From NCBI RefSeq assembly GCF_027744825.2, contig NC_071334.1, positions 43,501,437-43,565,436 on the forward strand: a stretch of 64,000 nt of DNA. Direction: 5' to 3'. Shown one piece after another: positions 49,701-55,700 of this stretch. The translations under genes and the position numbers were made by a program. The notes under the pieces are model-generated. The model saw nothing but the letters and a program-made list of their open reading frames with translations. It made no database searches and had not been told where the DNA came from. Within the stretch, counting starts at the first letter, position 1; each line of letters begins with the position of its first letter. Source of the stretch: Synchiropus splendidus (lineage: Eukaryota > Chordata > Actinopteri > Syngnathiformes > Callionymidae).

Positions 49701-52700
49701 CATTTCAATATGTCTTCATGACAATCTCTATTCATTTGTAGCTACTGACACTTGATTGTTATTTTGCCAGGCTATTTGCAGAAACAAATTGCAGAAAATG
49801 TATTTGTTTCAAATGTGTCCAGAAAGTTGTGGGCAATATGGGAAACTATATCATGATTTATTTATGTATTTACTCACTTTAAATAACTGTTTAGATTTTA
49901 TCGCTTCTCTTTTGCATGATTTTATTGTAGTTCTGAGTTTAACATTCTTTGCCTGAACTTGCTTCAAAAAAACAATTATTCTTTCTCTCTTCACATTTTG
50001 GAGCACATGTATTGAGCATTTAGTTTTTCGCCAACTTTAAAACCACAAAGCAAACTTTGACAGTCCATGAGTATCAATAAAGTTTTGAAGTGAGACGTCA
50101 CATTAGCTCTATTAGCTCTGTGGACAGTCTTTGGCGTTGCGGGTCCGACAAGGATCCCTCCCTCCATGGTTCTGTGGTGAAAGTGTGTGGATCAGGTTTA
50201 AAAACAGCTGGAAGTTGCGCATGTGAGCGGCTTCTTGGCTGTGAGTGTGTGGGAAGAGGAGCGCCGCGCACCACAGCAGCGCTGCTTTGACTGACGGACA
50301 GATCAGCGCATCAACACACTGTAGCTCTACAGTGGAATGGAGAGAAAGAACGTCAGTGAATCCATGTGATCTCCTCACCTTGGTTGCTGGTTTAAAGTCA
50401 TCATATCGCCCACCTCTGTCTCCGGACACATGAGGTGAAAGGGGATCATTTTCCCACAGCACACCTGACGCTCTCTCACCGCACACTAGTGTGCTGTGGC
50501 ACCCCGGTTGAAAAACACTGGTCTATTCAGCAGGGACTTGCACGGAGGGTTAGGATTCCAAAATCCATCACATGTAAAATATGTAAATGGCAGGTTTGGG
50601 ACTGAGGGTTTATTGATGTCCATCCCAGCCAACCTCCAGACTGGCTCATCTCAGCTCACATGACTGTTTGTGTCATTACCTTTTCCTTCACCATTTTGTA
50701 AACATACATTTAGTGAGATTTTGTTGACACATTATGCAACTTGGTTAATGGAACAGGTTCAGATTGAAGTCAGTTAAAAAAAGAAAGAAAAGATATGAAT
50801 CTGAATCATTTTCCCGCAAGCCACATATACGCAGTACAAACGCCTTTCAAAAAAAGTGTTTCTTTTTGTCTCTGCTTGCACTTGGGGTAGAGTCTAAAAT
50901 AGAAACAGAAAGGATGTGTGAGGCAACAGTTCCAGTCGTCACTTGATTACCTGTTAGCTAGTAGCTCTGACACAGTGCCGGAGGGGGATGTGAGAGTGAG
51001 GGAAAGGTCACCGCGGCGACTGCAAACAATGGAAACCCGGACGATGACATGCTCCACATAAACAACGTGCTGCTGGGATTCTGTGGAACAGCCTGTAGTC
51101 TCCATGGCAGATGTCAGCGCGGTGCCAGGATGAATCGTTCTGTCACGAGCCAGAAGAAGGAGAGAGAGGAGCGAGGGATGAAAGTGAAGGGAGGGAGCAG
51201 CAGAGGAAAAGTGGGAGTTACAAGGACAGAATTGACAAGGACGCTCATTTAAGTGTGTGAGAATCATCCTGAGACCGAAATAGATGGAGTCATGGGAATC
51301 AAGGGAAGCCCTGACTCAAAGCGTGGCATGCCTCGCAGTGCTGTTGATACCTGCTCGCTTGGATGGGATTTTCCTGCACACACACATGCTGCTGGGGGAC
51401 GTTCTTCCACTGCTCAGCTTCTCTCACCATCATCTCGGCATCCAGCAGACCAAAGCCGTACACGTGACTCACTGACAGAAACAAACAGAAAAAGCTGCTC
51501 TTCATCACAGACACTGCACTGAATCTAGATCATGTGGCGGATTGAATCAATTCACCGTAAAGTAACCTTCAATCTGCTGTGAGGATATTGAGTCCCAGTA
51601 GCAAGTCTGATGTTCTAACTCTGTCAAGGAGGTTATGTTTGTGTTTCAACAGCGGCAATGACAAAATGTAGCGTTGATTTATTTCCTCATAGTTTCCCTC
51701 ACCTCCAAACTGATCACATGAAGTAACGTCGCCTCAGTCATGAAACGTCACAGTGGATGTGACATTTATAGCACAAGAACGGTGATGTACCTTTGTGCCC
51801 GGCACCATTGACGCGCCAGTCTGAGGCCAGGAGGTGGCGAGGTGTCGAGGCTCTGACAATAATGTGCTGAATGTCCCTCCAGGTCAGCAAGGGACTGACG
51901 GATGAAAAGTGAAATTGTAGTATCTGATCACATACTACGTGTTGAGGTCTTCTGAAACTTACTTGGCCTCCAAAGCGAGCGCAACGACTCCAGCAACGAC
52001 GGCCGACGACTGGGACGGGCCGCATTTCGCTCTGCTGCAGGTCTGGTTCTGACCCAGTGTGAGCTGTGAGTCAGAGCAGATGCTGGATCAAATATCTGGC
52101 AGGCCAGTTAAAGAGCACGTAGGCACAGCGACAAAGTATCAGATGCTGGAATAATTGTTGATGTGAAAATGCATTTAGAGCAAAATGACACATAGCAATA
52201 AATAATAAGTGAAATGCAGTGAAACTTTGACGTGATTTAGTAAGATTCAACTGGTCAGAGTTTAAAACAAATAACAAGGAAGCATTTTTTTCCTCCCAGC
52301 TCCGACTCACCACCTCCTCTGTCTCAGCAGCAGTGGCCAGTGTGGACGCGCACCTCTCCATGTACTCTGGTGGACCCCCCCTCCATGTGCTGCTGCTGAC
52401 AGAGATGGTGTAGATGCTGCTGCTGTAGCCGTCGCAGGAGCAGTGGTCGCCGTTCTGACCTCCACTCCCCGAGCCCCACACAAAAATGGAACCCTTTCCC
52501 TGCCGACCCTGAGATCAGTTGTGATTTAGAACAACATATATTTTGGTCAGTCAGTCGTATTGTGTCATACTGTCATGATGCTGTTCATCAGAGCCAGGCG
52601 GGCTAGAGGCCCGGGTCCATCCACAGTTGCTCCATCATCTGCTGGACCCCAGTCGGCTAAAAATATATCAATGTATTGAGGTCGAAAGCTCAGTGATGCT

Positions 52701-55700
52701 GCCTCAGTGGCGTCTGTTTGTTCTCCTCTCAACATGTTGACTCCTGAAAAGAGCAAAACATGTCGTCCAGCTGAACTGAGAGACAGCAATCATTGCAAAA
52801 AAGAAAAGGAAAATGTGAATGGCAGAAATATGTTTTGTTTTCTTAAGAGGAAGAATGCTCACCTCCAATACGTGCTTGGAAGGAAACTCCTATGCTGCAA
52901 GAGTGTGAGCTTTTTGCAGCAGCGGTGATGACTCCTGCGCACTGCTCCGTCCTGAGGCTGCAGAAAACACAAGATAGACGGTTGGAAGCTCTAAGCACGG
53001 AAGCTTTGCCCGTCACTAATCCAGTTAGAGAATCAAACTAATGAATTACGAAGTTTCTATAATCTGCTGATGTGGAAAGGAGGTTTTCACATCAAAGTTA
53101 AGGGAGAAATTTTTATTTATTTACTCCTGAAGTATAAACTTGTTTTTCGCCCAAAAGTAGTTTGTGTTGTTTCAGTGGGTCTCTATTCCTGGGGAACAAA
53201 AATAATTTTTATTTTTATTTTTTTGTTTACTACAACTCAAATTTTTATATACAAGATTTTCAACCGGGAATTCTACTCTCCATAACATAGATTATCATTA
53301 AATTAGAATTGACATTTTGTAGGTGACTGATGATAGGTCCCAATGAAGGGCCACTGTTTAAAACTTTAGTTTCAACATGACGTGGTGATTTTTATGTAAA
53401 ATACAACCCAAAAATGACAATGACAAATTCGACTGTAAACACATAGCTATGGAATTCTGAGCTCAAGCACCAATTTTTGTGTTTTGAACGATGGTATATT
53501 ATGGTAGATTAGATTACATTTTGATCTTTTCATGATCAAAGTTACACTTCTTGGCCTTCTGAAGTGTCAGATGACCACATTAGCATACGGGTGTAATATT
53601 TTCAGCAAAAATGAAAACAAGACATTTCTCAAGATCAAACTGGTGGCAAATAAATGTATCCGACTATCGAGAGGGTCACTTCCGACAAAGAACTCACTCT
53701 TTGGTGGCCTTGCTGTCTTTTCTTGATGGGCTTCTCTCTTGTCCCTTCACATCAGAACTGGCCCGAACATCCTAAATCAGAGGCATATTAAGTCACGGCA
53801 CATAGTGAGATGCCATCGGCTGTCTGTCTCTGTTTCAACAGACAAATCACAAAGAGCATTATTCACGAGGTCACTTAACAGATAAGTGGATCAGACGTTT
53901 AATGTCCATTCCAATACTCCCAGACGACCTCTGCGAACCTCTGGACCAAGAGCTCGCCCAGCAATATATGTCTCACCGATGAGTTTGTGCGCTCGGAGAT
54001 CTGCCAAATTGCTTATGAATAATGTTCCCGTCGCAAGCCTGTCTACCCAGGGGCACTTACATAATTTGGCTTCAAATCTGGATGCTCCATCTCAATGCCA
54101 TCACCAAGAACGGAGACCACCACACCCGATCCCGTGTAGCCCCTCCTCCAGGCCCCAGAGATGTTCATGTGAGACTGAGAGGCCAAGAGCGAAAAATTAA
54201 TCTGGTTTGGTTCAAAGCTTTGACGCCTCGGGCAGGGTTTGGACTCACAATGTACCACGAGGTGTTCCGCAATGGATCCCCAAACTGGATGCGGTCAGTT
54301 AAGTGGCGAGGGCTTTGTTTAGGGGAGAATGTCGAGGTCCGTTTTGATCTTCTCAGAACCACCTGCTGTTGAATCCATTCAACCTTAAAGGAAAACAGAA
54401 CAACAGATCAGATACCCACTGGACTCTCTGTGTGAATTTATTCAAATACAAAACTCGTACTGCACATGGCGAGAGGAAGAACAGATCTGAAAAGTCTGCT
54501 TGGACATAGAGAGGGTGCATGATTGGGTGCCCAGGGACAAGTTGTGGGAGGTGCGTCTGGAGTATCGGGTGCAAGGCTCCCTATTGTGGGCCGTTCAATC
54601 TGTGTAGGAGTTGTGGCCAGATCCTTGGATAAAGGCCTGATGTGTTTTGGTTGGTGGTTGATCTCCACCAGTGTTATGCTTTGTTTTTGCTTTCGAAGTG
54701 CAGCTGTGGTGGGGAGGGTTTGCAGTCATCTTGGGGTTTGTTCTCAGGTGAGGGGGGAGTAAGGAGATTGGTTGGTGAATCGCAGGGGGGAGGTATTGCA
54801 GTCGCTCTACTGCGCTGTTGTGTGTACGAGAGAGCTGAGCCAAAAGGCAAAGCTCTCTATTTACCGATCAATCTTCATCCCAACCCTCACCTATGGTCAT
54901 GAGCTGTGGGTTATGACCGAAAGAACGAGATCCCAGATACAGGTGACTGAAATGAGTTTCCTCCAACGGCCAGGGGGCGTCTCCCTTAGAGATCGGGAGA
55001 AAAGTTCTGTCACTCGGGAGAGACTCGGAGTAGACCCCCTACTGCTCTGTGTTGAGAGGAGTCAGCTGAGGTGGTTCGGGCATCTCATGAGGATGCCCCC
55101 TGGAGGCCTCCCTTTGGAGGTGTTTCAGGCACGGCCAGCTGGGAGGAGACCGAGGGTTGGCCCCAGGACCAGGTGGAGGGATTATATCTCAGCACTGGCC
55201 TGGGAGCACGGGATCCTCCAGTCGGAGCTGGTGAATGTTGCCCGGGTGAGGGTGGAAGGATGGAAACAGATGGACAGAGTTCAATGAAAATACCAGGATT
55301 TATTAACAGGATGAAGAACACATGGTGTTCTGGATTAGCCTCTGGATCTTCTGAAGGACTGGTCACGCTCACGACTAAAGCTCATCCAGAGAAATGAACG
55401 ATTTGTCCTTCAACTAAATAAAACAGCTTAATTCAACAACTTGTCCAGGTGAATACAAGACCTCAGCATGTTCAAGCAACAAAGCACTGGAAGCAACAAA
55501 TGATCTGTCCTTGTGTTCAACTTCCAAGACAGTAGTTGCTACAGTTAAAAAGTTGCTCCATGCAGTCTGTGACTGGGTCAGTTCTCATTAAAGAATCACA
55601 GATGTTGGCAAAGGGAATCAGCCGAATTCTTTGTGTTGGCGCCCTATTTGTTATTTTTAAAAGTCAGTTCTCGGAAATGCTCTATTGAAGTTCAGTGTCT

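Follow-up and report, generated by a model that had tools for sequence, protein, structure and literature searches.

The dragonet Synchiropus splendidus carries, in a 64,000-nucleotide stretch of its genome referred to here as the window (NC_071334.1, positions 43,501,437 to 43,565,436), a copy of the proprotein convertase gene pcsk5 in which the catalytic Asp, the catalytic His and the oxyanion Asn have all been replaced. The gene is a complete long-form pcsk5a on the minus strand, where it extends from 60681 to 25302. Spliced alignment resolves approximately 1,860 codons in 37 real exons followed by TGA; an initial annotation made from the sequence gave roughly 1,867 open codons over 37 exons. 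Splice sites are consensus or near-consensus, and the possibility of a broken frame was rejected, as the alignment contains no frameshift and no internal stop. The guides used were, in turn, a human PCSK5 sequence, the Channa argus protein, and a composite of Channa and Synchiropus picturatus; one of the 38 exon rows in the alignment, a single base at 27736, was discounted as an artefact of the aligner. The encoded domain order is signal peptide, prodomain with an RRSKR motif, S8 peptidase, P domain, extended Cys-rich domain, membrane segment and acidic tail.

Exon 1 (60532-60681, donor CAG/GTACGT) encodes the signal peptide and the start of the prodomain, which continues through exon 2 (58129-58233) and ends in exon 3 (54249-54383) with the processing motif RRSKR (54353-54339) and a linker. 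The peptidase boxes follow in exon 4 (Asp box, 54061-54174), exon 6 (His box, 52863-52957), exon 8 (Asn box, 52311-52508) and exon 9 (Ser box, 51963-52063). Between them lie the strongly divergent exon 5 (53698-53771) and exon 7 (52571-52743), which keeps the pocket residues D233, E236, W254-P256, D258 and D264; exon 8 likewise keeps D301, D306, Y308 and E331. Exon 10 (51791-51894) holds the C-terminal part of the peptidase, exons 11-14 (48262-51471) its end and the P domain, exons 15-36 (27322-48092) the extended Cys-rich domain, and exon 37, the last (25302-25774), the membrane segment and acidic cytoplasmic tail before TGA at 25301-25299. Pfam recognises Peptidase_S8 at 103.3 bits (cut-off 21.8), P_proprotein at 96.8 (21) and S8_pro-domain at 80.9 (25.5), and the best PDB sequence match is furin (E 1.7e-131). 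The mean pLDDT of AlphaFold models was 50 with 31 alignment rows (approximately 20-37 across the peptidase) and 77 with 150 rows.

Residue numbering follows furin and was verified by alignment. All four codons highlighted in the initial annotation read back as stated there. GGT at 54105-54103 gives D153G, turning LDDGIE into LGDGIE; AGG at 52953-52951 gives H194R, turning HGTRCAG into RTEQCAG; and AGT at 52466-52464 gives N295S, turning ASGNGG into GSGSGG. The Ser368 codon, TCC at 52015-52013, is retained in a box that has changed from HTGTSASAP to KCGPSQSSA, so that the GTSASAP context is now GPSQSSA. Judged by the hallmarks of a convertase, the gene thus has only Ser368 left in its reaction centre, and it carries the RX[KR]R motif at the prodomain end as RRSKR. 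Exon 6 can begin at either of two in-frame AG acceptors that lie 6 bases from each other, with starts at 52957 or 52951 that give DLRTEQCAG or ETEQCAG, so residue 194 is Arg or, by the second acceptor, Glu; neither brings the His back. Alternative exons that might restore the motifs were also considered and rejected, since no further exon in which the Asp, His, Asn or Ser box is intact was found in the window: beyond the boxes of the gene itself, a six-frame regular-expression scan of both strands returned a few stray partial motifs with no convertase context. The closest public protein among the matches listed is S. picturatus pcsk5a (P0121), with 95% identity across residues 85-480, and its states at the four sites (G, R, S, S) are identical to those of the window. 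A sequencing or assembly error is therefore very unlikely as the source of the lesions.

Some details of the gene model deserve separate mention. The 5′ end of exon 4 is approximately 10 codons short of that in Channa, lacking a Cys-Cys loop (HCSNESKHCQ) at window position 54174 and leaving an intron 3 of 74 bases; an alternative upstream acceptor at 54201 is possible, but results in an intron of only 47 bases. The public S. picturatus protein lacks exons 1 and 2 and starts MTANPPDQSCTS, resembling intron-2 sequence approximately 350 bases upstream of exon 3 (window position 54729), which points to misannotation or else to a different first exon lacking a signal peptide. A single pattern search of the window gene for a PLAC-type tail exon, as used by the short secreted isoform, found none, and precomputed PF08686 matches are absent from the listed pcsk5a proteins and present on many listed pcsk5b proteins; the short isoform may be lost from pcsk5a. 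A related idea, that pcsk5b has kept only the short isoform, was dropped, as long pcsk5b proteins exist (for example P0231 and P0256).

In a FastTree phylogeny of 118 sequences, the window gene groups with pcsk5a and apart from pcsk5b. Its neighbours among the pcsk5a sequences are S. picturatus and then the pipefishes (support 0.97); it represents the pcsk5a member of the teleost duplicate pair, from a callionymid. The initial annotation had proposed looking for a second paralogue in the same genome. A search of the 583 Mb assembly (96 contigs) located pcsk5b at C7:13304000-13323800, with D153, H194, N295 and S368 (the DHNS state) all intact. Over exons 3-10, the stretch compared, with the first and later exons lying outside it, dragonet pcsk5b shows no difference from that of Neosynchiropus ocellatus. 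For pcsk5a, 9 of 314 aligned peptidase sites differ between the window and S. picturatus.

The catalytic losses are not confined to dragonets. We surveyed one sequence per species, taken from the best 120 of each of two match lists: 66 acanthomorphs plus the window gene, and 15 others. Isoforms, near-duplicate or congeneric species and most further non-acanthomorph matches were left out, as were P0159 (Lampris, region missing) and P0048 (a gapped Echeneis isoform, for which the fuller P0125 reads DHNS). The 67 acanthomorphs include two non-percomorphs, Centroberyx and Diretmus. DHNS is read in 44 of the 67, and the other 23 lack at least one catalytic residue, so the idea of a lesion private to the window species was rejected. 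Fourteen of these 23 lack D, H or S: two dragonets, six pipefishes and kin, two puffers, three gobies and one blenny. Every one of the six pipefishes and kin carries S368A, the puffers carry D153E or D153G, and in Knipowitschia caucasica (P0042) none of the four residues survives (S, R, S, A), nor does the processing site of the prodomain. The remaining nine (two sticklebacks, lumpfish, snailfish, prickleback, two sea breams, silverside and icefish) lack only the Asn. On a FastTree topology that deviates in places from accepted fish relationships, we count three loss events for D, three for H, eight for N and four for S, in at least 10 lineages. As controls, DHNS is found in all 15 of the other, non-acanthomorph pcsk5a or PCSK5 sequences, and in 65 of 73 teleost pcsk5b proteins (a set that includes isoforms of one species); seven of the rest are gapped at a site in the alignment, and one Oryzias sinensis model, which is doubtful, reads DHNI. 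The pcsk5a of percomorph fishes has undergone catalytic decay repeatedly. The RX[KR]R motif is kept in 17 of the 21 lesioned sequences with data.

The evolutionary rates show that the change extends beyond the catalytic residues. Tree lengths were computed on a fixed topology and expressed as the ratio of peptidase to N-terminal Cys-rich domain, with 15 bootstrap replicates each. This ratio is 1.12 for acanthomorph pcsk5a (0.92-1.57; 49 of 67 with data), compared with 0.22 for six otophysan pcsk5a (0.17-0.29) and 0.34 for 28 percomorph pcsk5b; the acanthomorph pcsk5a peptidase has lost its special conservation. We also compared clades at family-wide invariant peptidase sites, excluding catalytic and pocket sites. 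Relative to the remaining sites, these evolve at a rate of 0.61-0.68 in three clades that inherit a catalytic loss; the corresponding figure for two DHNS clades is 0.35-0.37. Catalytic loss is therefore accompanied by further relaxation of the peptidase, short of neutrality.

The Cys-rich domain behaves differently. The window gene keeps 179 of 179 near-invariant cysteines. Among the six pipefishes and kin, there are no changes in these 179 columns versus 688 in 906 others, so the domain is still constrained after catalytic loss, clearly so in the pipefishes. Aligned over 1787 residues, the window protein and that of S. picturatus show 39 differences; in the membrane-tail region, one residue of 158 has changed. 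As regards what defines a pseudoenzyme, catalytic residues have been lost inside a recognisable enzyme domain, and upkeep by selection after the loss is seen in the pipefishes, with weaker evidence for Synchiropus.

The substrate pocket was assessed at active-site positions that serve in P1/P4 binding and calcium coordination. D233, E236, W254, G255, P256, D258, D301, D306 and Y308 show no change among the 67 sequences, in which D153, H194, N295 and S368 change 4, 3, 11 and 4 times. Three further residues of the cleft, D191, E257 and D264, are variable. In the window gene, all 12 of the pocket residues tested are present, compared with 110 of the 154 remaining invariant sites of the peptidase. 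When the three clades with inherited losses are pooled, the 12 pocket sites show 4 changes versus 10.6 expected at the rate of the other invariant sites (Poisson P 0.020). Retention of an arginine pocket is suggestive but unproven.

We consider that dragonet pcsk5a is most likely a maintained, non-proteolytic, zymogen-like membrane pseudoprotease with a binding role, proteolysis being carried out by pcsk5b; from the sequence comparisons, we put the probability of this reading at roughly 0.8. The initial annotation had already argued that the protein cannot cut in the normal way and is nevertheless kept, and this core idea is supported by the matching lesions of S. picturatus, the intact frame, the full set of cysteines and the intact pcsk5b. 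Furin offers an experimental parallel: the D153N form is reported to be catalytically inert and, although synthesised, to undergo little processing and secretion (PMC2662429). By analogy, the lesioned pcsk5a would probably keep its prodomain and leave the endoplasmic reticulum (ER) poorly, mostly staying uncleaved in the early secretory pathway or reaching the membrane inefficiently; ER exit would probably be inefficient unless another convertase cuts RRSKR. A second furin mutant, an inactive S-to-A form, is reported to act as a chaperone for MMP-28 (PMC2989691), and it is for this reason that we propose a binding role. The protein may act as a chaperone, scaffold or competitor via its Cys-rich and P domains, possibly with arginine motifs bound in the retained S1/S4 pocket, and pcsk5b would supply the proteolysis. 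A bolder version extends to percomorph pcsk5a at large, as a dead convertase with an arginine-reading pocket that serves as membrane receptor or chaperone for RXKR proproteins, independently disarmed in 10 or more lineages once cleavage had passed to pcsk5b; we regard this generalisation as tentative and rather doubtful.

Several observations weigh against the favoured reading. The constraint test is weak for Synchiropus itself, with no cysteine-column changes in 179 against 2.9 expected (P 0.054). The peptidase/Cys-rich ratio is also raised in DHNS-only acanthomorph pcsk5a, at 1.10 (0.81-1.33; 35 of 44 with data), so their peptidase is relaxed too and residue loss is not the sole correlate of relaxation; the pcsk5b ratio used for comparison is unstable (bootstrap 0.25-1.50). 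The prodomain is the fastest region, at 1.88 times the N-terminal Cys-rich rate (the taxon sets differ), and the pipefish tail is fast, at 0.744 changes per column. Four of the 21 lesioned sequences with data lack RX[KR]R; Tetraodon and Champsocephalus retain RXXR, and Pseudoliparis and Knipowitschia do not. The nine sequences that lack only N295 may retain weak activity. Finally, pocket retention in lesioned sequences is not significant when set against equally conserved acidic residues (P 0.087). Separately, we see that A369, H364, P372, R197 and W328, which are invariant in 45 DHNS-type PCSK5 sequences and furin, are altered in most acanthomorph pcsk5a, including those that read DHNS; the activity of the latter should therefore not be taken for granted either.

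Among other explanations, the one that survives best is that only the Cys-rich domain, membrane segment and tail do any work, as a matrix or cell-surface scaffold or a trafficking receptor, and that the peptidase is tolerated baggage. This would fit the retention of cysteines alongside a relaxed peptidase, and a review describes the Cys-rich domain of the related PACE4 as binding heparan sulfate proteoglycans and TIMPs (PMC9296861). Against a mere passenger stand the rate of 0.61-0.68 at invariant peptidase sites, still slower than other sites in the lesioned clades, and the 61 of 170 family-wide invariant peptidase sites that never change in the 67 sequences; on balance we think it a credible account but not the probable one. 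A substrate-trapping decoy, in which the S1/S4 pocket binds the arginine motifs of proproteins or its own uncut RRSKR, thereby competing with pcsk5b and furin or shielding from them, appears rather unlikely. The nine unchanging pocket residues, beside a catalytic four that do change, and the deficit of pocket changes in the pooled clades argue for it; the acidic-matched comparison and the variable D191, E257 and D264 argue against, and W254-P256 and the calcium site may persist for folding.

We judge it highly improbable that the gene is a decaying pseudogene, with lesions that mark the onset of its loss and nothing maintained. The fast peptidase and prodomain and the loss of three of the four catalytic residues would suit such decay, but the long open frame with clean splice sites across 37 exons, the full set of cysteines, the single tail change between two species, and the pipefishes, in which the dead state has endured while the cysteines are retained, all speak against it. 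An enzyme still active through Ser368 with new partners, or through trans-cleavage, could draw on the retained Ser368 and specificity pocket and on the weak activity that Asn-only lineages could have, by analogy with subtilisin oxyanion mutants and given that PCSK2 carries Asp at the oxyanion position. This is scarcely believable with the triad Asp and His both gone, GTSASAP turned into GPSQSSA, and D153N alone reported to stop furin self-activation (PMC2662429).

Elsewhere in the window, prune2-like exons lie at 10238-21129 on the plus strand, convergent to pcsk5a. A BNIP2 Pfam match covers 10238-10576, and BCH-domain exons at 12778-21129 on the plus strand have 65-95% identity to a piece of PRUNE2. 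The arrangement is consistent with the adjacency of PCSK5 and PRUNE2 in human and tetrapod gene order. Two dispersed repeat families, 85-93% alike, occur in the intergenic region and in pcsk5a introns, one at 20610-20911 and 44156-44454 and the other at 13990-14320, 32266-32609 and 42603-42865. AT/TA arrays begin at 6770, 31726 and 32156, and Rfam and tRNA scans gave no matches.

Proprotein convertases have been studied almost entirely as cutters. The long isoform of PCSK5 (PC5B/PC6B) has the same domain order as the window gene, which is placed in the pcsk5a clade; the window gene differs in lacking the catalytic Asp, His and oxyanion Asn and in a peptidase that is no longer the slowest domain. 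The work of PCSK9 outside the cell needs no substrate cleavage, although its triad is kept and makes one self-cut. Like PCSK9, pcsk5a would be a convertase with a cleavage-free role, but pcsk5a has a disrupted triad within a complete PC5B architecture. One study mentions that PCSK9 binds LDLR and lacks a P domain, and reports that in the PCSKs it examined in placental mammals conservation is highest in the catalytic domain (PMC8553125). The pseudoproteases iRhom1/2 and others share with pcsk5a a protease fold without catalysis, and the iRhoms are described as cofactors of ADAM17 in its maturation and trafficking; they belong to a different protease family, whereas the pcsk5a loss recurs independently within one fish clade. 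The iRhoms are ancient, fixed pseudoenzymes. The inactive furin that acts on MMP-28 is likewise a convertase working without catalysis, but is a laboratory mutant and no natural gene (PMC2989691). The initial annotation knew of no described PCSK5 pseudoenzyme, and among the papers listed by searches of the open-licence literature we likewise found no description of one, nor any of fish pcsk5a having lost catalytic residues. The nearest report is that in a cichlid only PCSK5B resembles the mammalian gene (PMC4992253).

For the fishes themselves, the lineages that have lost pcsk5a catalytic residues include the laboratory or genome models stickleback, pufferfish and pipefish, and medaka and killifish keep them. 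The catalytic residues of any fish gene annotated as PCSK5 should be inspected before its product is assumed to be active, and convertase function without cutting becomes directly testable in fishes with and without these residues.

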